A stretch of 64,000 bases of DNA, from the NCBI GenBank assembly GCA_017456015.1, contig JAFTLL010000004.1, positions 1 through 64,000 on the forward strand, given 5' to 3'. The position numbers were made by a program, and so were the translations under genes. The DNA is from Clostridia bacterium. GTDB taxonomy: Bacteria > Bacillota_A > Clostridia > Oscillospirales > Acutalibacteraceae. The notes below the pieces were generated by a model. It saw only the letters and a list, made by a program, of their open reading frames with translations, did not search any database and was not told the DNA's origin. Of the stretch, positions 34,607 through 42,438 are shown in pieces (position 1 is the stretch's first letter; each line of letters starts with the position of its first letter).

Positions 34607-34664
34607 ATTGTATTTTTAGTAAATAATGCCTTCGTACTTTAACATAAACAAATCAAAATGCAAA

Positions 34665-34800
34665 TTCACACAGTATAAATCTCCTCTACTTACAGATAAT
34701 CGTATCACGATTTGAATAAAAAGAGGATTTATAAGGACAATTGTCCGTCGTGTTGATGAATGAGTTATAAAAACACAAAAGCCGCTTAGAGTCATATAAA
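34665..34800 (+). repeat. spoVT leader/start remnant, copy C
   Basis: The stretch aligns with the leader of intact spoVT (41824-41900). It shares CACAGTATAAAT at 34669-34680, then ACAGATAAT..TATCACGATTTGA, then AGAGGATTTATA. The start codon is lost; the frame resumes as IVRRVDE followed by a stop, matching IVRRIDD of SpoVT. The leader keeps an inverted repeat (AAATC-CCTCT with AGAGGATTT) and an inner hairpin AATCGT-ATC-ACGATT. It is a decayed copy, one of four in 8 kb. Confidence 0.72.
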
Positions 34801-34817
34801 TAGTCCGCTTTTGTTTT
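34776..34817 (+). terminator. Possible terminator of the Crp/Fnr transcript
   Basis: CAAAAGC at 34776-34782 pairs with GCTTTTG at 34807-34813 across a 24-base loop, followed by TTTT. The long loop makes it weak, and it overlaps the decayed copy C. Confidence 0.35.
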
Positions 34818-34871
34818 ATAGTCATCACGATAGAATGTGTCTGAAAAATATTATATAGTTTCTCCTGTATA

Positions 34872-34908
34872 GAAAAACGGTGGCATAGCCTTTTGGGCTT
34901 GCCACCGT
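34872..34908 (-). terminator. Terminator of the SDR gene
   Basis: On the minus strand, ACGGTGGCA (34908-34900) pairs with 34885-34877 and is followed by TTTTT at 34876-34872. An inner AGCC/GGCT pairing extends it. Confidence 0.85.
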
Positions 34909-34913
34909 AATCT

Positions 34914-35729
34914 TTATTTAAACTGTTTGCCGATTACACTCCCGCCGTCACACAGGATATCTACACCTGCAAGATAACCGTTGCGCTCATCCGCAACCGT
35001 TGCGATAGCATATCCTAACTCTTCGGGAGTGCCCATACGATTTTCTGCGGTAGTTTTCAACAAGCTGCCGCCCTCTTCCGCTTCCATTTTACCCATGTCG
35101 GTGGCGATGAGTCCGGGGCTCAGTGAAACTACACGAATCTTCTTTTTTCCGTACTCAAAGGCACATTTAGCCGCGTACCATATTACAAACTTTTTCGACA
35201 GCCCGTATGCCAGTCCGGATGATTTGTACTCATCCTTAATCATCTTGCTCATTCTAAGCGATTTTTTCAGGAACAATGCCTCATCCGTTTCGGCAAGGGC
35301 AAAGGTTTTCTTGTTAGAAAGAAAGTTCGGCAAAATGTAGGCGGAATTGGAAGACACATCAACAATAACGCTTCCTTCGGACATGAGCTTAGAAAATTCC
35401 TGATTGACATAGACGGTGCCCAATGCATTAACGCGCATAATCTGCTCGGGCTTTGCCATTGCAGGCGACAAACCCGCGGAATGAATCACATTTTTAATTT
35501 CGCCAAGACTTGCGGCGTATTCGGTTAACGATTTGACCTGTTCGCGTTTGGAGGTGTCACAGGTTTTGGCATATGCCTCATAGCCCAACGCTTCCAGTTC
35601 TTTTACTGCTTTTTCAAGTTTTGATAAGGTTCTACCGGCAACAACAATAATTTTATCCTTCGGCATAAATTTGGCGGCCGCAAGCCCCATACCGCTACCT
35701 CCGCCTGTAATCACACATACGTTTTTCAT
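34914..35729 (-). CDS. SDR-family NAD(P)-dependent oxidoreductase
   Basis: A 271-residue short-chain dehydrogenase with the cofactor motif TGGGSGMG at residues 8-15, a variant of the usual NAG motif (HSAGLSPA), SSNSAY as the serine region, and the catalytic YGLSKK. The C-terminal GYLAGVDILCDGGS is standard. The substrate is unknown. The 40-residue insert before the catalytic Tyr (ALAETDEALFLKKSLRM) is longer than in minimal SDRs. It is monocistronic, with its own promoter and terminator. Confidence 0.87.
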   Translation of the reverse strand: MKNVCVITGGGSGMGLAAAKFMPKDKIIVVAGRTLSKLEKAVKELEALGYEAYAKTCDTSKREQVKSLTEYAASLGEIKNVIHSAGLSPAMAKPEQIMRVNALGTVYVNQEFSKLMSEGSVIVDVSSNSAYILPNFLSNKKTFALAETDEALFLKKSLRMSKMIKDEYKSSGLAYGLSKKFVIWYAAKCAFEYGKKKIRVVSLSPGLIATDMGKMEAEEGGSLLKTTAENRMGTPEELGYAIATVADERNGYLAGVDILCDGGSVIGKQFK

Positions 35730-35760
35730 AATGTTCCTTCTCCTTCAACTTGTTTTTAGA

Positions 35761-35789
35761 ATTATAACATTCGTTGTAAGAAAGTTCAA
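35761..35789 (-). promoter_or_regulatory. Sigma-A promoter of the SDR gene
   Basis: On the minus strand: TTGAAC at 35789-35784, 17 bases, TATAAT at 35766-35761. Confidence 0.7.
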
Positions 35790-35844
35790 GCAAATTAAGG
35801 CGGAAAACTACATTGTTCCTAAAAGCATAAATTAACCGATGATT

Positions 35845-36756
35845 TTAATCTTGTTTTTCTTCGATAAGCAGATTTATGGCAAATTCCGCATATTTGGAAA
35901 GATGTTGGCCTCGGCGGGTAACGATGACCGGTTGCCGACGGTAGGTGTTATCCTTGATTTTAAAAAGGGTGATTTCTCCGTTACATAACGCACCTTCGCC
36001 GATAAATTGCAGCGGAACAAGTGTGGCTCCGATTCCGGCTTGCGCCATAGCCCATGCCGTTGTTATGCCTGCAACCTCCATAGCGATATGCGGATGAAAA
36101 TCCGATGCCGCACAAAGTCGATCAAACAATACTCGCATTTCCTTTGACGGGTCAACAACAACAAACGGAAGTTCTGCGCAATCTTTGAAAACAATTTCCG
36201 CAAGATTGCCTGACGGCGCATTCGGAATTTCTCCCAACATTTCGTTGGGAACGGCAAGTACCAAAGCATCCGGCTCAATGGGAGTGTATTCCAAAACAGA
36301 ATCATCCACCGGCAGGTTGACAATGGCGAAATCAAGCTTTCCGTCTATTACATCTTTGCGGATTTGTTCGCTGTTTGTATCATAAAGACTAATCTCAACG
36401 CCCGGAAACCGTTCACGAACCTTCTTAACGATGGCAGGAATTAAATAAAGACTTCTAAACGGAGAAGCCCCAATTACCAACCGCCCCCGTTCTCCGGTGC
36501 TGAAACTTTCCAGCGAACGCTTTAACTGCTCCTCTTTGTAAAGCAGTTCTTTGGCCTCTCGAATAAAATGTTCACCTGCCGGTGTCAGTCTCAGCGGAGC
36601 ACAATTGCGGTCAAACAACTTAACGCCTAAATCCTTTTCCAGCAACATAATCTGTTTGCTGAGTGCCGGTTGGGTAATATTTAATTTTTCCGAAGCCTTG
36701 GAAAAGTTGCATGTTTTGGCCAACTCAATTGCATATTGCAGTTGTTTGGGATTCAA
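35845..36756 (-). CDS. LysR-family transcriptional regulator
   Basis: A LysR-type activator with the winged-helix domain at the N-terminus (NPKQLQYAIELAKTCNFSKASEKL) and a substrate-binding-like effector domain from about residue 90 (GRLVIGASPFRSLYLIPAIV). The TTG at 36756 gives 303 residues, the family norm, and has a GGTGAT site just upstream. ATG codons at 36768 and 36795 are possible alternatives, the latter with AGAGG ten bases before it. It is divergent from the TRAP-type permease at 36926 and probably controls it, as LysR genes usually regulate the divergent neighbour. Confidence 0.82.
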   Translation of the reverse strand: MNPKQLQYAIELAKTCNFSKASEKLNITQPALSKQIMLLEKDLGVKLFDRNCAPLRLTPAGEHFIREAKELLYKEEQLKRSLESFSTGERGRLVIGASPFRSLYLIPAIVKKVRERFPGVEISLYDTNSEQIRKDVIDGKLDFAIVNLPVDDSVLEYTPIEPDALVLAVPNEMLGEIPNAPSGNLAEIVFKDCAELPFVVVDPSKEMRVLFDRLCAASDFHPHIAMEVAGITTAWAMAQAGIGATLVPLQFIGEGALCNGEITLFKIKDNTYRRQPVIVTRRGQHLSKYAEFAINLLIEEKQD

Positions 36757-36847
36757 TCTTATCACCATCCTAACGAATGATTTGAATGATTTCATATATA
36801 GCATACCTCTTGAACTGTGAAAATGCAAGAAAAAACTAAAAAAACGC

Positions 36848-36876
36848 TTGACAGTTTCCATTATGAGATGTATTAT
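36848..36876 (+). promoter_or_regulatory. Sigma-A promoter of the TRAP permease operon
   Basis: TTGACA at 36848-36853, 17 bases, TATTAT at 36871-36876, in the LysR-permease intergenic region. Confidence 0.75.
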
Positions 36877-36925
36877 AACTTATATGGAATGGGTTCTATA
36901 ACCAAAATAGGAGGAAGGTGTACAT

Positions 36926-38287
36926 ATGCCAATTGAAATTATATATTTGGCAGTCGTTTTCGCAGTTGCGATTATCTTTTTCTGTTTCCTGAAACGGCCC
37001 TTATACGAGTGTATGTTTTTAGCATTCATTGCGTTACTTGCCGTTACCGGAACTTGGAAAAATGTTGGAAACTACATTTGGGACGCTCTGCAAGAGCCCA
37101 CACTGTATGTTATCTTTGCATTTATTCTCTCCGCAGACCTGTTGTCAAAGACCTCTGTAATTGATGATTGTATAGCTATCATTCTTTCCATCTTCGGTCG
37201 GTTCAGAGGCGGTGCGGGATTTGTTGCTGTTATTGGAAGTTCCTATATGGGCTCCCTTTCCGGTTCAGGCCCCGGAAACGTTGCAACCACCGGTGTTTTC
37301 ACCATTCCGGCAATGATTCGCTCAGGTTTCCCCCGTCATTTGGCTGCAAATGTTGAGGCGCATTCCAGCACTATGGGAAATATGATTCCGCCCGCTGGTA
37401 TGATTGGTATTGCTTTTGCCATTCTTGACGGTCTTTACCCTGACACCTACACCATGCCGCAATATTGGATGCTCCTTTGGGGAATTGCCGTTTGGTTTAT
37501 TCTTCAGCGTATCGTGACCTTGTACTTTATGTGCAGATACTATAAGGTTGAACCTATGCAGAAGGAAGACATCCCCAGTTTTAAGGAATCTCTTAAACGC
37601 GGCTGGAAGGCGATTTTCCTTCCCATTATTGTATTTGTTCCCTTTATATTTACAAGCGAATTTGCTGATTTCTTCACTGCCCGTCTCGGCGACGGTGCAA
37701 AAGCGCTTAACAACAGTCTGCTCTTGATCATCCCCTCGCTGATTGTTATTTGCGGCGTCTTCCTTTCCGATAAGAAGACCAGAGCCAAAATGACAATGAA
37801 AAATATGTACAACGATATTGCCAAGGGTATGCTTAAAGTTGTTCCCACAGCAGCGTTGGTGTTGTTTGCATACTTTGTAAGCAATGTTTTCGAAAGCCTT
37901 CATGTTGAAGAAGCAATCGGCGCGTATTTTGCCACACTCAATTTAAGTAAGGTAGCTCTTTGCTTCCTGATTCCGCTTTTCTGCGCAATTCTCGGTATGC
38001 TTTTGCCCGGCTCGTCGCAGGTAAAGATTTTCGGCGGCGTCATCATCACAATTATGGCTGCGGCAGGTTGTCATCCAATGCTGGTTGCCGGTATGCTTCC
38101 CTGTATCTGCGGTGCTATGCACGGTGTTACTCCTCCTTATTGCGCATGTGTTTACACAGGTATGGGTATCGCGCAGGCTGAGCTGAAACCCACCCTGATG
38201 AATTGTGCAATCTGGATCACACTGCATTACTTACTGTCTGTATTGATATTGCTTGGCATTATCCCCGTTTGGGGACTGGTCGGTTAA
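36926..38287 (+). CDS. TRAP-type large permease (DctM-like)
   Basis: A 453-residue membrane protein with about twelve spans. The segment SGSGPGNVATTGVFTIPAMIRSG, followed by VEAHSSTMGNMIPPAG, is the conserved DctM/TRAP large-subunit transport core, repeated in weaker form in the second half (GMLLPGSSQVKIFGG). TRAP carriers use sodium or proton gradients to import carboxylates or similar acids with an extracytoplasmic DctP protein. No DctP gene lies nearby. The divergent LysR regulator probably responds to the substrate, which is not evident. GGAGG precedes the ATG. Confidence 0.82.
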   Translation: MPIEIIYLAVVFAVAIIFFCFLKRPLYECMFLAFIALLAVTGTWKNVGNYIWDALQEPTLYVIFAFILSADLLSKTSVIDDCIAIILSIFGRFRGGAGFVAVIGSSYMGSLSGSGPGNVATTGVFTIPAMIRSGFPRHLAANVEAHSSTMGNMIPPAGMIGIAFAILDGLYPDTYTMPQYWMLLWGIAVWFILQRIVTLYFMCRYYKVEPMQKEDIPSFKESLKRGWKAIFLPIIVFVPFIFTSEFADFFTARLGDGAKALNNSLLLIIPSLIVICGVFLSDKKTRAKMTMKNMYNDIAKGMLKVVPTAALVLFAYFVSNVFESLHVEEAIGAYFATLNLSKVALCFLIPLFCAILGMLLPGSSQVKIFGGVIITIMAAAGCHPMLVAGMLPCICGAMHGVTPPYCACVYTGMGIAQAELKPTLMNCAIWITLHYLLSVLILLGIIPVWGLVG

Positions 38288-38302
38288 GGGGGTTGAAGGA
38301 AT

Positions 38303-38611
38303 ATGCGTAAAAAGATTTTTAAAGTTTTTAATGTAACCTATGGCGTTCTTATGTCGATTTCCTTCTTTGGCGGCCTTCTTCCGTTATTTCCGTTCATTTT
38401 TGCTTTGATTGTTGGCGGTAATTTAGCAGAGAAAATCTCTGTGTTCCTCTATGATCAGTATTATCCTTGGGTAATCATTAGCGGCTCTTTTGCAGTCCTT
38501 TTCGGCTTGGTTGCTATGTATGTGGGCAAGTTGGAAGGCCTCAGCATTAAAAATGTAAGCGCCGATAAATCTTCAAACGACAGCGAAGCAGCAGAACCCG
38601 AAACAAAATAA
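38303..38611 (+). CDS. Small membrane protein, partner of the TRAP-type permease
   Basis: A 102-residue protein with two to three hydrophobic segments (GVLMSISFFGGLLPLFPFIFALIVGG; WVIISGSFAVLFGLVAMYVG) and a hydrophilic, acidic C-terminal tail. It follows the permease by 15 bases and shares its terminator. Position and size suggest a DctQ-like small subunit, but it is shorter than usual DctQ (about 160 residues, four spans) and no family motif is seen. Call it an accessory subunit by context only. Confidence 0.6.
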   Translation: MRKKIFKVFNVTYGVLMSISFFGGLLPLFPFIFALIVGGNLAEKISVFLYDQYYPWVIISGSFAVLFGLVAMYVGKLEGLSIKNVSADKSSNDSEAAEPETK

Positions 38612-38623
38612 TTTCAAGCTTAT

Positions 38624-38664
38624 AAAAACAGCCGAGTCCTTACGGACTCTGCTGTTTTTACTTA
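38624..38664 (+). terminator. Terminator of the TRAP permease operon
   Basis: AAAACAGC-GAGTCC pairs with GGACTC-GCTGTTTT around a TTAC loop, with one mismatched pair, followed by TTTTTAC. Confidence 0.85.
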
Positions 38665-38739
38665 TTGTTCGGGTTTCATTTACAGTAGAAAGTATAAAAG
38701 TTTTATTATCATATCATAAATAACTTAAAAATTAAATCC

Positions 38740-38868
38740 AGGCAATATAAATTTCTTCTATTAACAAATACTAATATTTCAATTTAAATTTAAAGGAAAT
38801 TTATATATCAAGGCAACTGGAATTGTGCGTCGCATTGAGGCTCGTGTTATAATAACACCAAGAGCTAT
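38740..38868 (+). pseudogene. Decayed spoVT start with its leader, copy D
   Basis: The leader matches that of spoVT (AAATCCAGGCAATATAAATTTC, split by changes; TTAACAAATA; TTAAAGGAAATTTATAT). The start codon has changed from ATG to ATC at 38808-38810. The frame then reads KATGIVRRIEARVIITPRAI, against KATGIVRRIDDLG-RVVIPKEI in SpoVT, before similarity ends at about 38868. The ribosome site (AAAGGA) and the inverted repeat pairing it with ATAAATTTC upstream survive. It cannot make SpoVT and is best read as a remnant. Confidence 0.75.
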
Positions 38869-38941
38869 AAACCCGCATAAACACTAGGGTTTTCGCTGAT
38901 TTTGCCCAACTTAATTTGCACAAATACATAAGATACATAGC

Positions 38942-38970
38942 AAAAGCGAGGGGAATTCCCCTCGCTTTTC
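38942..38970 (-). terminator. Terminator of the XRE regulator gene
   Basis: A perfect 12-base stem, AAAAGCGAGGGG at 38942-38953 with 38958-38969, and a four-base loop AATT. The minus-strand T run is short (TTTT). Confidence 0.8.
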
Positions 38971-38972
38971 GT

Positions 38973-39629
38973 TTAGTCTAAAACGATATCTTTTACGATC
39001 TCATCAAAATATTTGGATACAATATGCAAACAAAACTCTTTCATCATTTCAATATTTTCTTCTTTTCCGCCGTAGATTTTACCGGTAATGGGTGATTCCA
39101 ATTGTACCATAAAATCTTGTAAGAGTGCCATAGTGTCTTCACCGTTTGCAATATCTTTGTAACGCTTGATGTATTGCAACAATATGCCAAACCGTTCGTG
39201 TGAAATTAAGTCATTTAGTAGTTTAAGGGTTGCTTTCCCCTGTGCCATATTATACGGAACGATCTCTTTCTCATAATCAAAGCCAATCGCTTCGTAATCC
39301 TTTTTTATATGGTCGGTATTGCCGGTTGCCAAGAGTTGTAATCCTGTAAAAAATTTCATCGTATCGTCGGTAAGCCCAAGTTGATCGGCAGTTAAGTTGG
39401 AGTTTTTATCCTCACGAATATTGCTAAGTCCTACTAAATAATCGCAAGAAACGCCTAGATACTCTGCCATTTTTCCTGCAAGAGCAATATCGGGATTGCG
39501 TTTTCCTAAAATATAAAAATTAATGCTTTGCCGCGAACAATTTACCGCTTCGGCAAATTCCCCTTGTGAAATTCCTTTTTCAGAAAGAAGTTGTTCTAAG
39601 CGGTGTCCAAAAATTTGTTGCATTTCCAT
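38973..39629 (-). CDS. XRE-family HTH regulator next to the barnase-barstar pair
   Basis: A 218-residue protein. The Cro/C1-type HTH is at residues about 6-66 (LEQLLSEKGISQGEFAEAVNCSRQSINFYILGKRNPDI, written here as two joined parts: recognition region CSRQSINFY). A C-terminal helical domain of unknown function follows, with no known motif. The ATG at 39629 is preferred over a TTG six bases earlier because GGAGG is eight bases upstream. It is divergent from the RNase gene at 39819; a large inverted repeat and a consensus promoter lie between them, so it probably represses the toxin-immunity genes and itself. Confidence 0.82.
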   Translation of the reverse strand: MEMQQIFGHRLEQLLSEKGISQGEFAEAVNCSRQSINFYILGKRNPDIALAGKMAEYLGVSCDYLVGLSNIREDKNSNLTADQLGLTDDTMKFFTGLQLLATGNTDHIKKDYEAIGFDYEKEIVPYNMAQGKATLKLLNDLISHERFGILLQYIKRYKDIANGEDTMALLQDFMVQLESPITGKIYGGKEENIEMMKEFCLHIVSKYFDEIVKDIVLD

Positions 39630-39653
39630 ATTCAAAGCCTCCGAAAGTACATA

Positions 39654-39684
39654 TTTGTAGCATTGAAAATTAATGTGCTACAAA
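39654..39684. promoter_or_regulatory. Operator-like inverted repeat in the XRE-RNase intergenic region
   Basis: TTTGTAGCA at 39654-39662 and TGCTACAAA at 39676-39684 form a perfect 9-base inverted repeat with a 13-base spacer. A third half-site GTAGCA lies at 39706-39711 inside the spacer of the divergent promoter. This is a good candidate for XRE-protein binding. Confidence 0.62.
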
Positions 39685-39688
39685 ACTA

Positions 39689-39717
39689 TTGACAAATCAA
39701 CAAAAGTAGCATATAAT
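39689..39717 (+). promoter_or_regulatory. Full-consensus sigma-A promoter of the barnase-barstar operon
   Basis: TTGACA at 39689-39694, 17 bases, TATAAT at 39712-39717. The spacer contains a GTAGCA half-site, and the main inverted repeat ends five bases upstream, so a repressor could cover the promoter. Confidence 0.8.
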
Positions 39718-39818
39718 ATATTATAGCAACAACAGTATAGATTGTCAAGTCTTTGGCGGCGGGAAGATTTGAACTGTACTTTTGGGCTAAAGAATGGTAT
39801 AATACGAAAGGAGAAAGG

Positions 39819-40325
39819 ATGCATTCTAATAAGTATAAAAACTGGATAGCCATTTTAGATTTAAAAACATGTTTGGAGTGCAGAATGCGACATGGTCAAA
39901 TCTATTTGGCAGAGGAAATTGTAGATCCGGAGCCTCCCCTACACCCTAATTGTCGATGTGAAATAGAATGGGTAAAAGCTCTTTATGCAGGAACCGCAAC
40001 AAGCAAGGGGAATGACGGTGCTGACTGGTGGTTAAAATGGATCGGAAAACTTCCGGATTATTACATCACATCTACAGATGCCAAAAATCAGGGATATAAT
40101 CCGTATCTTGGGAATCTGTGGATGGTTGCGCCCGGAAAGATGCTTACCAAAGGAAAGTATAAAAACAAAAACGGTCATTTACCATCGGCACCCGGACGAA
40201 TTTGGTATGAGGCGGATATTAACTATACTTGGGGATATCGTGGTTCTGACAGAGTCTTGTTTTCGAATGACGGATTAGTGTTTGTAACATACGATCATTA
40301 TAAGACTTTTCAAGTTATTGTGTAA
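39819..40325 (+). CDS. Barnase-like ribonuclease with an N-terminal Cys/His domain
   Basis: A 168-residue protein. Residues about 76-168 match barnase: LPDYYIT, GNLWMVAPGK, GRIWYEADINYTWGY and YDHYKTF. The catalytic set is present: Glu131, Arg141, Arg145 and His160, equal to barnase Glu73, Arg83, Arg87 and His102. The position of barnase Lys27 is Ser85. The N-terminal part has C-x2-C (Cys18, Cys21) and PPLHPNCRC (His42, Cys45, Cys47), like the metal-binding motif of phage head-morphogenesis (Mu gpF/SPP1 gp7) proteins. No signal peptide is seen. AGGAG precedes the ATG. The barstar gene follows, so this is a toxin-immunity pair. Confidence 0.9.
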   Translation: MHSNKYKNWIAILDLKTCLECRMRHGQIYLAEEIVDPEPPLHPNCRCEIEWVKALYAGTATSKGNDGADWWLKWIGKLPDYYITSTDAKNQGYNPYLGNLWMVAPGKMLTKGKYKNKNGHLPSAPGRIWYEADINYTWGYRGSDRVLFSNDGLVFVTYDHYKTFQVIV

Positions 40326-40339
40326 AGAGGGAGAATGCA

Positions 40340-40669
40340 ATGAATTATTTTGAAGAACAGAATAGAAATGCTTTTAAACCTATCATAGAGAATCCCATTA
40401 TTTTAGATTTTTCTTCTTGTGAATATTTGGGAGAGATACACCTCGTTTTAAAAGAGAAATTTGGTCTTCCTGAATATTACGGCGAAAATTGGGATGCTCT
40501 TTGGGATTGCTTAGATGATAGGTTTTGCGAGGATAAAGATTTTGTAGTGGAGATATATGGATATACCAAATTAGAAAACGACTTGCGCGGTCATTGTGCT
40601 GTGATGCTGGAAGTTTTTGACGATGTCCACGAAGAGCATCCAAATGTAGTTTTTAAACTTATTTCATAA
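40340..40669 (+). CDS. Barstar-family ribonuclease inhibitor
   Basis: A 109-residue inhibitor. LPEYYGENWDALWDCL at residues 43-58 is the barstar helix that plugs the barnase active site. Asp52 and Asp56 correspond to barstar Asp35 and Asp39, and Asp95 may replace Glu76. The N-terminus is about 18 residues longer than classical barstar. It lies 14 bases after the RNase gene with a GGGAG site, so it is co-expressed and should neutralise the RNase in the cell. Confidence 0.9.
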   Translation: MNYFEEQNRNAFKPIIENPIILDFSSCEYLGEIHLVLKEKFGLPEYYGENWDALWDCLDDRFCEDKDFVVEIYGYTKLENDLRGHCAVMLEVFDDVHEEHPNVVFKLIS

Positions 40670-40685
40670 ACATTTTAAAAAGCCA

Positions 40686-40759
40686 ACCTCGCACAGTATA
40701 AAACTCCTTTGTTGACAGATAATAGAAATGTTATCAAATCAACAAAGGAGTTTTTATAT
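40686..40759 (+). repeat. spoVT-type leader, copy A, with RBS-sequestering hairpin
   Basis: After CGCACAGTATAAA, the leader has AACTCCTTTGTTGA at 40702-40715, which is exactly complementary to TCAACAAAGGAGTT at 40739-40752; an inner stem GATAA/TTATC continues it. The ribosome site AAAGGAG lies in the 3' arm, so the folded mRNA would hide it. It belongs to the same repeat family as the leaders at 34665, 38740 and 41824. Confidence 0.72.
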
Positions 40760-40939
40760 ATGAAAGCAACAGGTATTGTGAGAAGAATAGACGATTTGGG
40801 CAGAGTTGTCATTCCAAAAGAGATTCGCCGTACCATACGGATTCGTGATGGAGACCCGTCACAGACAACATTGACACCCTTCGACAAGTTTTGTTTGGCA
40901 ATACATAGTGTGGTGGAGAGATATTATAAATTAAAATAA
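40760..40939 (+). pseudogene. Truncated SpoVT/AbrB-type protein (copy A)
   Basis: A 59-residue frame starting MKATGIVRRIDDLGRVVIP. The first 33 codons encode 31 residues identical to intact SpoVT (41899). About 18 of those codons differ synonymously, so the copy was under protein-level selection in a diverged lineage rather than recently duplicated. Similarity stops abruptly at about 40858, after GDP, where the last strand of the AbrB swapped-hairpin fold should follow. The remaining 25 residues are unrelated. It is probably non-functional, but its start, ribosome site and a terminator at its end are intact, so a small product is possible. Confidence 0.7.
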
Positions 40940-40967
40940 CGGAGTGAAAAACCACTCCGTTATTTTT
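40933..40967. terminator. Bidirectional terminator
   Basis: A 13-base stem (40934-40946 with 40953-40965), six-base loop, flanked by A-rich and T-rich runs. It lies between the truncated SpoVT copy and the convergent DUF1835 gene. Confidence 0.85.
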
Positions 40968-41778
40968 ATGCGAGAGAAAGTGTTCTAGGCCAATAACAAT
41001 CGTAATCGTCAGTTTTTTCTTCGCATATTTTAATTTTACCGATTTCAATTAAATGTTCGATTCTTTCTGATATAAAAGCGACATCACAACCGCCTTGCCA
41101 TTTTCCTAACATTTTTCCCATAATAAAGGTTTGTGATTTTGGTTCATTACTTACAAAACTTAAAATAACATTATCAAAGAAATCTTCCTCAACACCAACA
41201 ATTGAACCATCTACTAAAATTCTTAAAGGAGCATTTTCTTCGATGAGATGTTTCCAAGTTTGCGAATATGCCAATATTTCATTTTTGTTGAGGATTTGAG
41301 ATTTTTCAGCAAATTCTGCCATAAAATATGGATTTCCAAAAGAGGCCCAGTTCCTGTTTTCGGATGTTTTATTTTTGATGTCATCATATTCATATCCAGG
41401 GCAAAAAACAACCGATATGTTATTTTCAAAACCTTTTACTAAATTGCAAAACCAATACAGCCCACAACGGTCGTTTGCATTATTACTTAGCCATAATCTA
41501 ATTTCCTGACCCTCAGACAATAAGTCTTTTAATATTTCTTGTGCCTTATATGCTTTTTTTAATTCCTTTTTATATTGCTTTCGCAATTCTTTTTCCGTAA
41601 CTGTTTTATAGAAATATTTTAATGTATCAACATTTCTTTTAGTTTGAATTTCAATTATATCTCCATCTAGACTTCCATAGTTCAAATGCAAATCTAATGG
41701 TAATACATTACTTTTAATAAGGTTTCTGACTTCAATCAACAAACCACCAACAGAATCACTGAAACAAATATCGAGCAT
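40966..41778 (-). CDS. DUF1835/DUF3658 domain protein
   Basis: A 270-residue cytoplasmic protein. The N-terminal part starts MLDICFSDSVGGLLIEV, the DUF1835 pattern. The C-terminal part (VILSFVSNEPKSQTFIMGKMLGKW ... ISERIEHLIEIGKIKI, in pieces) fits DUF3658. Family function is unknown. The central segment is lysine- and glutamate-rich with helical character. It sits between spoVT-start copies A and B and is convergent to copy A, so it looks like a passenger gene of this accessory region. No promoter was assigned. Confidence 0.72.
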   Translation of the reverse strand: MLDICFSDSVGGLLIEVRNLIKSNVLPLDLHLNYGSLDGDIIEIQTKRNVDTLKYFYKTVTEKELRKQYKKELKKAYKAQEILKDLLSEGQEIRLWLSNNANDRCGLYWFCNLVKGFENNISVVFCPGYEYDDIKNKTSENRNWASFGNPYFMAEFAEKSQILNKNEILAYSQTWKHLIEENAPLRILVDGSIVGVEEDFFDNVILSFVSNEPKSQTFIMGKMLGKWQGGCDVAFISERIEHLIEIGKIKICEEKTDDYDCYWPRTLSLA

Positions 41779-41823
41779 GATTTCACCGCCTTTAATTTAG
41801 TATAGCACATTTTATATTAAAAG

Positions 41824-41898
41824 TAAATCCAACCAGTATAATTCCCCACCTTTAACAAATAATAGTATCACGATTTGAAATTAAAGGAGAATTTATAT
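41824..41898 (+). promoter_or_regulatory. spoVT leader (copy B, intact gene) with RBS-pairing potential
   Basis: Starting AATCCAACCAGTATAATTCC, this is the fourth member of the leader family. AATTC-CC-CCTTTAA upstream can pair with TTAAAGGAGAATT at 41881-41893, which contains the ribosome site; an inner hairpin around AGT-ATC-ACG resembles copy C. The other three copies keep equivalent pairings despite different bases. A sigma-G promoter would be expected for spoVT but was not recognised with confidence. Confidence 0.6.
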
Positions 41899-42438
41899 AT
41901 GAAAGCAACTGGAATAGTTCGTAGAATAGATGATTTGGGTCGTGTGGTTATCCCGAAAGAAATTCGCCGCACTATGAGGATAAGAGAGGGAGACCCGTTG
42001 GAAATTTACACCGCCGCAGACGGAGAAGTCATCTTTAAAAAATATTCGCCGATAGGAGAAATGTCACAAACCGCCATTCAGTTTGCCGACGCACTTTCCA
42101 AGCACACCGAACTGCCGGTCATTATTACCGACCGTGACCACTGCATTGCGGCCGCCGGTATTGCCAAACGAGAAGCCATCGACCACCGAATTTCCCCCGC
42201 ACTGGAAGAAACCATGGAGGCGCGCCGAAGTTTTGTTTCTTCGTCCGAAGGCAAAAGTCTTGCCGCACTGGAAGGCTTGGAACGCCAGGTGGCGGTTGCT
42301 TATCCTATTCTTTGCGCCGGCGATGTACTGGGTGCTGTATTGCTCCTTTCGGATGAAGAGGGGCGCCACCCGAGTGAAACCGATATCAAATTGACCGCCA
42401 TTACAGCAAATTTTCTTGCCAAGCAAATGGAGGAATAG
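41899..42438 (+). CDS. spoVT: Stage V sporulation protein T
   Basis: A 179-residue transcription factor. The AbrB swapped-hairpin DNA-binding domain occupies residues 1-47 (KATGIVRRIDDLGRVVIPK; REGDPLEIYTAADGEVIFKKY, given in two parts). A GAF-like C-terminal domain follows (LPVIITDRDHCIAAAGI; AYPILCAGDVLGAVLLL). Length matches the Bacillus protein (178). SpoVT tunes late forespore gene expression. The start at 41899, not an in-frame ATG 24 bases earlier, follows AAAGGAG. Its presence indicates a spore-forming lineage. Three partial copies of its 5' end lie within 7.3 kb upstream. Confidence 0.95.
   Translation: MKATGIVRRIDDLGRVVIPKEIRRTMRIREGDPLEIYTAADGEVIFKKYSPIGEMSQTAIQFADALSKHTELPVIITDRDHCIAAAGIAKREAIDHRISPALEETMEARRSFVSSSEGKSLAALEGLERQVAVAYPILCAGDVLGAVLLLSDEEGRHPSETDIKLTAITANFLAKQMEE

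Follow-up and report, generated by a model that had tools for sequence, protein, structure and literature searches.

Arrays of partial spoVT gene starts bound accessory genes in Clostridia and are probably built by recombinase integration together with homologous recombination

The window analyzed here is a stretch of 64,000 nucleotides from a Clostridia bacterium (GenBank assembly GCA_017456015.1, contig JAFTLL010000004.1, positions 1 to 64,000), in which the sporulation gene spoVT is preceded by three partial copies of its own 5′ end, named D, C and B from left to right. The initial annotation had described four spoVT-start stretches here, the intact gene included, with accessory genes between them, and all four were confirmed at the same positions and in one orientation. 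The cargo was also as described (Pfam): SDR, LysR and DctM genes, then an XRE regulator with a barnase-like ribonuclease and barstar, then a DUF1835-DUF3658 gene. The features are as follows.

34671-34814, + strand: copy D, a degenerate type I unit with leader, remains of codons 1-10, core GA at 34755-34756 and a tail beginning TGAATGAGTTATAA... (leader E 2.5e-9; type I tail 34739-34814, E 8.9e-6)
34914-38611, both strands: cargo D-C overall (Pfam)
34914-35729, - strand: SDR gene, cargo D-C (Pfam)
35845-36861, - strand: LysR gene, cargo D-C (Pfam)
36926-38287, + strand: DctM TRAP permease gene, cargo D-C (Pfam)
38303-38611, + strand: small open reading frame (ORF), cargo D-C (no Pfam match)
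38743-38975, + strand: copy C, a type I unit with leader, start ATC, codons to 10, core GA at 38837-38838, tail and terminator-like hairpin (leader E 7.7e-14; tail 38814-38988, E 1e-41; fold)
38973-40669, both strands: cargo C-B overall (Pfam)
38973-39635, - strand: XRE regulator gene, cargo C-B (Pfam)
39753-40325, + strand: gene for a barnase-like ribonuclease with a Phage_Mu_F domain, cargo C-B (Pfam)
40340-40669, + strand: barstar gene, cargo C-B (Pfam)
40694-40968, + strand: copy B, a type II unit (leader E 1.3e-39; type II tail 40847-40972, E 3.7e-29)
40760-40939, + strand: 59-residue ORF of copy B, spoVT codons 1-33 plus tail
40871-40876 and 40883-40884, + strand: TTGACA and, after six bases (N6), GA of copy B, with a terminator-like hairpin at 40940-40968
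40966-41778, - strand: DUF1835-DUF3658 protein gene, leftward, cargo B-spoVT (Pfam)
41799-41828, - strand: promoter-like site for the DUF1835-DUF3658 gene, with a -35-like AAAAGTAAAT at 41819-41828 and a -10-like AGTATA at 41799-41804 (read from sequence)
41833-41898, + strand: spoVT leader with CAGTATAA and ATAATA boxes (sequence, leader model)
41899-42438, + strand: intact spoVT (NCBIfam spore_V_T, E 1.5e-62, 210.7 bits, under the curated 235.9)
41929-41930, + strand: predicted attachment core GA, the first two bases of codon 11 (from junctions in relatives)

By consensus, the boxes of the spoVT leader would form a sigma-G-type promoter, and the site at 41799-41828 would be the leftward promoter of the neighboring cargo gene.

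For copies C and D, the initial annotation had named scores no better than those of shuffled leaders as a refuting result. This was not the case. Using scoring profiles trained without the window, and 300 dinucleotide shuffles per copy as a control, we scored the stretches 34640-34830 (D), 38710-39000 (C) and 40670-40990 (B). No shuffle out of 300 reached the real scores for the leader/start model (35.3 bits for D, 51.4 for C and 135.5 for B), the type I tail model (20.3 for D and 128.0 for C) or the type II tail model (72.7 for B), the top shuffle score under any model being 6.1 bits (type II model, D). With the type II tail model, D scored -1.9 bits, which 14 of the 300 shuffles matched, as expected if D is a type I unit. 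The copies are therefore gene starts, as claimed, but not merely decayed ones, since they follow two conserved designs with defined junctions: the window holds two type I units (D and C) and one type II unit (B). Beyond the gene start, units C and B have a tail followed by a terminator-like hairpin, with predicted fold energies of -22.3 kcal/mol (38930-38975) and -11.2 kcal/mol (40940-40968), respectively. A hairpin at the ribosome-binding site was also considered as a general feature of the leader; it was strong in copy B and absent in the intact spoVT of the window, and was dropped.

In type I units, the spoVT leader is followed by codons 1-10 up to AGAATNGA, with the core GA, then by a conserved tail beginning GGAATGCGTTATAATAGGGC... 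or GGCTCGTGTTATAATAACACC..., by TATACATAGCAAAAGCGAGG and by a terminator-like hairpin. Single units fold as long hairpins. When the mosaic alignment of type I units was submitted to RNAalifold, no consensus structure emerged (energy 0, z 0.13). Type II units carry the leader and codons 1-33 up to GACCCG, joined in frame to a tail of approximately 24 to 27 residues (xTTLTxFDKFCxAIHSVVxRYK); a hairpin resembling the type I terminator is present in the closest relatives. The motif TTGACA-N6-GA was found in 17 of 26 type II tails (19 with a relaxed motif, all of the relaxed ones at offset 12), against a mean of 0.02 in mononucleotide shuffles.

The open frame of type II units could mean that they are kept for a functional SpoVT-like peptide of 60 residues, acting as a DNA-binding decoy or SpoVT antagonist, with the array as a by-product. 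The ORF is indeed in frame across diverse genomes, the tail residues are partly conserved, and a protein search with the type II peptide returned at least 7,999 matches, of which the 120 listed were 56 to 99 residues long and covered 90 to 100% of the query at 81 to 100% identity. However, at the best-conserved sites of the tail it is the third codon base that is fixed, pointing to conservation of the DNA. Among 26 ORFs, some of them related and with two L294 ORFs with another tail excluded (G, L and C handles denote genomes, loci and contigs), third positions were variable in codons 1-33 and fixed in codons 38-39, codon 38 being TTG in 25/26 and the third base of codon 39 being A in 26/26. 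Type I units, moreover, encode approximately 20 to 26 residues at most, or have lost the start. We consider the peptide explanation very unlikely.

Some units and leaders depart from the two designs. L294 (G295:C22) and L165 (G189:C15) show a third tail type after codon 33, TTGTTGCTACACACC..., which in L294 holds the AAACCCGCAT..ACTGGGTTTT hairpin familiar from type I tails. Short hairpin-rich inserts, resembling small insertions of miniature inverted-repeat transposable elements, lie in the spoVT leader, downstream of the ATAATA box and ahead of the ribosome-binding site, both in units and before intact spoVT (L042:178, L061:5651, L080:3474, L024:7024 and others). In L033, L052 and L011:2688, the spoVT start, which belongs to the intact gene in L033 and to a type II unit in L011, has a divergent leader (..CTGGGTTTTTGGCACATTCTTAGAGTAGAGAAAAGGAG in L033) with hairpins weakly matched by the type I tail model; this leader is perhaps another element end.

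A spoVT search gathered 80 related loci, and at a threshold of E ≤ 1e-4 at least one extra spoVT start was present upstream of spoVT in 12 of them (11 of the 50 loci with at least 5 kb upstream), with a maximum of six within 10 kb (L042). The comparison of related genomes suggested by the initial annotation revealed variable cargo between spoVT-start copies, and its proposal of repeated events at the spoVT 5′ end was supported. The arrays lie upstream of spoVT on the same strand: no reverse-strand leader match occurred across the 80 loci at E ≤ 1e-4, and the sole downstream match was a second spoVT-like gene in L064. Across 12 whole genomes, matches to a unit query were upstream of spoVT on the spoVT contig, except for two in G005 on another short contig (C17, L112), which is another array piece, and one in G011 at the start of another contig. 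Among 198 relatives of G001, 98 matched at E ≤ 1e-3, many of these matches being the spoVT start alone. The type I tail was found in 18 of the 29 best new loci, a selection of best matches that gives no prevalence estimate. In one named isolate, Vescimonas fastidiosa MM35, a type II unit annotated as AbrB/MazE/SpoVT lies on the spoVT strand, 12.4 kb upstream of the gene.

A viral source of the units was also considered and rejected. An exact tail pattern had no match in viral sequences, and the 40 of 80 viral loci that were translated were all AbrB-like (79 to 103 residues) or SpoVT-like (157 to 181 residues); the viral contig L234, outside those 40, carries a type II unit. Matches were listed for 54 phage and 159 plasmid records, among which Vescimonas was looked at in detail, and one phage record reached 98% peptide coverage at 59% identity.

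In the window and in relatives, accessory segments are bounded on both sides by spoVT-start copies, and the same cargo was found in different genomes at different array positions, as would be expected of the growing accessory hotspot envisaged in the initial annotation. A DUF4304 gene, for example, occupies the fourth position from spoVT in L062 but the first in L079, and is also present in L112, L124 and L156 (77 to 94% identity). Cargo in relatives includes TIR/ThsB-like, Schlafen AlbA_2, TOTE primase-helicase, NACHT/STAND, restriction-modification and barnase-barstar genes, sugar-use genes (read from translation) and genes without a Pfam match. Since no upstream gene family occurred in more than 3 of 67 loci, there is no conserved left neighbor. 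For 72 placed units, the gene to the left pointed leftward in 45, rightward in 24 and was lacking in 3; a -35-like AAAAGTNAA motif was present in 35 of the 45 units with a leftward gene versus 2 of the 24 with a rightward gene. In the barnase-like protein of the window (39753-40325), the Phage_Mu_F domain precedes the ribonuclease domain and an overlapping barstar partner follows downstream; no PADLOC model matches this protein.

Recombinase genes were rare within the arrays. Matches to PF00589 (the tyrosine integrase family) were found in 12/12 genomes, none of them on array stretches, and tblastn of 65 array loci (1.05 Mb, some loci overlapping) detected serine recombinases in one and a tyrosine integrase in two. 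An integrase adjoining the array, as in integrons, was not found, the sole nearby cases being L279 and a distant homolog in L286. At L279:226-3684, XRE, excisionase-like and replication-initiator-like ORFs (by reading) accompany a tyrosine integrase (Pfam), with a type II unit 2.5 kb to the right.

The array genomes and their relatives do encode serine recombinases. A Resolvase search matched in 17 of 19 array genomes, and in G175 (L295), three tandem large serine recombinases, all with Pfam Resolvase and Recombinase domains, lie directly left of a unit, and the right end of their element (..CTTGACATAATGG) abuts a type II unit at its codon 11. Homologs of the third of these recombinases were found in 11 of 245 genomes in a first search and in 13 of 396 in a second, with the G337 protein as query. 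Seven matches in the second search, the query included, were at least 45% identical (G337, G175, G050, G437, G184, G611 and G579), and in 7/7 the right end of the element was at spoVT codon 11 with core GA; the target was full spoVT in four (G337, G050, G184 and G579) and a type II unit in two (G175 and G437), and a contig end cuts the G611 target. The viral contig L234 has a codon-11 junction as well, with the element right end inside a type II unit. TTGACA-N6-GA was present at 4 of 5 element right ends, the L234 end having TTGACG. None of the six weaker matches to G337 (36 to 42%) was seen at spoVT, G618 among them not being located; four joined recombinase genes (read from translation) and one joined spoVAC. 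From the first search, the weaker matches in G229, G287, G359, G292, G136 and G290 were not at spoVT either, and that in G177 (43%) was cut by a contig end.

Left ends were seen in G050 and G184, the other five elements being seen at the right end alone. Each of the two has one exact spoVT head, running from codon 10 through GA into sequence that matched the type I tail model with 61.1 bits in G050 (E 1e-18) and 46.6 bits in G184 (E 2.6e-14), compared to 14.7 for a plain spoVT start. Because these left ends match the type I tail model, we read type I units as probable attL-like scars. In G184, 66,892 bases separate the head from the tail on the same contig and strand; joined at GA, the two would encode a 180-residue SpoVT. 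ParA/ParB-like and conjugation-like ORFs lie near the head (by reading), and the interval, whose middle holds core-looking genes, may not be one element. The initial annotation had noted that no integrase was present and had left the mechanism open, a view that these relatives do not support: a spoVT-specific clade of large serine recombinases, whose element left ends match the type I tail, is the likely integrase behind the units. Related elements were also seen at other sporulation genes. Of the right end of a related serine-recombinase element in L308 (G136:C4) and that in L307/L359 (G292:C3), one joins spoIVA (TIGR02836, E 1.3e-53) and the other joins spoVAC just upstream of spoVAD (TIGR02838, E 3.4e-12; NF006160, E 1.9e-14), so that further sporulation genes may serve as targets for this recombinase superfamily.

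We consider it probable that both recombinase integration at spoVT and homologous recombination between portable gene starts build the arrays. The spoVT 5′ end would be the attachment site (core GA, at codon 10/11) for elements with this particular recombinase clade. Integration would split spoVT after codon 10, leaving a left junction of promoter, leader, codons 1-10, GA and element left end, and type I units would be such junctions whose element has gone. Type II units would be the spoVT promoter, leader and codons 1-33 joined to sequence with the recombinase right-end motif and core (TTGACA-N6-GA); a type II element leaving a headless spoVT broken at codon 34 was sought, and none was present among the loci examined. 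Every unit would then be a portable, promoter-bearing piece of spoVT that can serve as a homology arm. Homologous recombination between units would add or swap upstream accessory genes while one complete spoVT stays at the right end. Of the explanations considered, this fits best; the outcome would be an integrase-free, one-directional array of short cassettes. Whichever piece recombines, the unit would return promoter, leader and start to spoVT, allowing arrays to grow.

The cassette edges bear on whether every step could instead be site-specific. Cassettes would then be non-autonomous mini-elements whose right end is the spoVT leader with codons 1-10 or 1-33, moved by a recombinase in trans and comparable to cis-mobilizable elements or to ssrA islands without an integration module, of which 15 are known (PMC3146451). 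The fixed junctions of all units, the DNA-level conservation of type II units and their right-arm motif would all be accounted for. However, the cargo shared by L062 and L112 is 97 to 100% identical until near the -10 box approximately 100 nt before the unit ATG, and 62 to 89% identical thereafter, so that identity is not lost at GA. The left edges lie at the terminator, as for the DUF4304 gene in 5/5 loci; the DNA beyond differs, although L112 and L124 have type I tail sequence in common. Codon 10 was therefore ruled out as a universal cassette edge, the edges in L062 and L112 being at the terminator and near the leftward promoter of the unit. Serine integrases are also not known to perform a B-P′ x B-B′ reaction. 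Because cargo edges are off the core GA and recombinases are lacking in the arrays, we regard a purely site-specific process as unlikely.

Homologous recombination alone would require one ancestral partial duplication of spoVT that spread, with the recombinase elements merely using the same gene and being unrelated to the units. Two findings favor this: the lack of serine recombinases in 64 of 65 array loci, and the host-like starts of type II units, whose codons 1-33 were 92.1% identical to the spoVT of their own genome (n = 14) and 77.7% identical to that of other genomes (n = 182). Their own spoVT ranked first for 12 of 14 units, the exceptions being L166 and copy B of the window (77%, 6th of 14). 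Against it, in two codon-11 elements the left end fits the type I tail much better than a plain spoVT start does, and the type I junction is at the exact recombinase core position. Given these fixed junctions and matching left ends, an origin by homology alone appears highly improbable, and integration combined with homologous recombination remains our preferred explanation.

Several points weigh against this combined explanation. Type I leaders showed no host preference (73.8% identity to their own spoVT, 71.3% to others; n = 18), and window copy B ranked only sixth, so that units would also move or recombine between lineages. The claim of the initial annotation that older starts are left upstream is supported, though not in the wording that each event leaves one. 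The strict TTGACA-N6-GA motif is missing from 9/26 type II tails. Three tandem recombinases were seen in G175 alone, a single homolog having been examined elsewhere; the 66.9-kb middle of G184 includes core-looking genes, and in G337 a second spoVT, intact, lies on a different contig. The recombinase clade is known from relatives, not from the genome of the window, and nearly all genomes are metagenome-assembled. The recombination steps are deduced from genome comparison, and homologous recombination over approximately 100 to 170 bases at 70 to 90% identity may be inefficient.

Whether these loci amount to a large, unrecognized cassette system of gut Clostridia is, in our estimate, evenly balanced. 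Such a system would consist of spoVT-docking recombinase elements and broken starts acting as portable, self-restoring promoter/start modules, and many 60-residue database entries called "stage V sporulation protein T" or AbrB/MazE/SpoVT would be its units. If so, a sporulation gene would be flanked by a site where defense, toxin-antitoxin and metabolic genes come, go and are exchanged, in an integron-like manner though with the array itself free of integrases. The spoVT start would become a marker for accessory and defense genes in uncultured spore-formers and might explain why many short proteins bear a SpoVT annotation; the recombinase clade, with its predicted attB and attP, would be directly testable. 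A literature search, mostly without coverage of subscription papers and preprints, found no description of spoVT as an integration site or array.

Mobile DNA inside a sporulation gene is a trait shared with skin (sigK), SPbeta (spsM) and yin (yabG). These are phage-like, single insertions, and to our knowledge, unlike the spoVT units, they leave no accumulated scars. The nearest known element appears to be gin in gerE of Bacillus cereus, which has three serine recombinases, as in G175, and splits a sporulation gene that excision can restore (PMC5595907); here, the target is spoVT, for which the split gene and a predicted joint were seen, and the parts of that report available to us do not describe gin as leaving arrays of gene starts. 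Chromosomal integrons (PMC8876359) similarly form one-directional arrays of small cassettes separated by repeats, whereas the spoVT repeats are gene-derived, no integrase lies beside the array, and most leftward cargo genes have a promoter-like motif at the unit. The nearest known array is probably that of the Dehalococcoides ssrA islands (PMC3146451), which are tandem accessory islands at one essential gene, bounded by copies of a gene end and associated with the serine recombinase DsiB, with 15 islands lacking an integration module. Their repeat is 20 bp long and comes from an RNA gene, at its 3′ end, whereas the spoVT repeat spans 100 to 170 nt and covers a protein gene's promoter, leader and start; spoVT cassettes often hold one to few genes, and all array loci but one are without a serine recombinase. 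If our interpretation is correct, spoVT would link two known phenomena at one locus, namely, the interruption of sporulation genes by elements and the occurrence of islands in tandem at a conserved gene.

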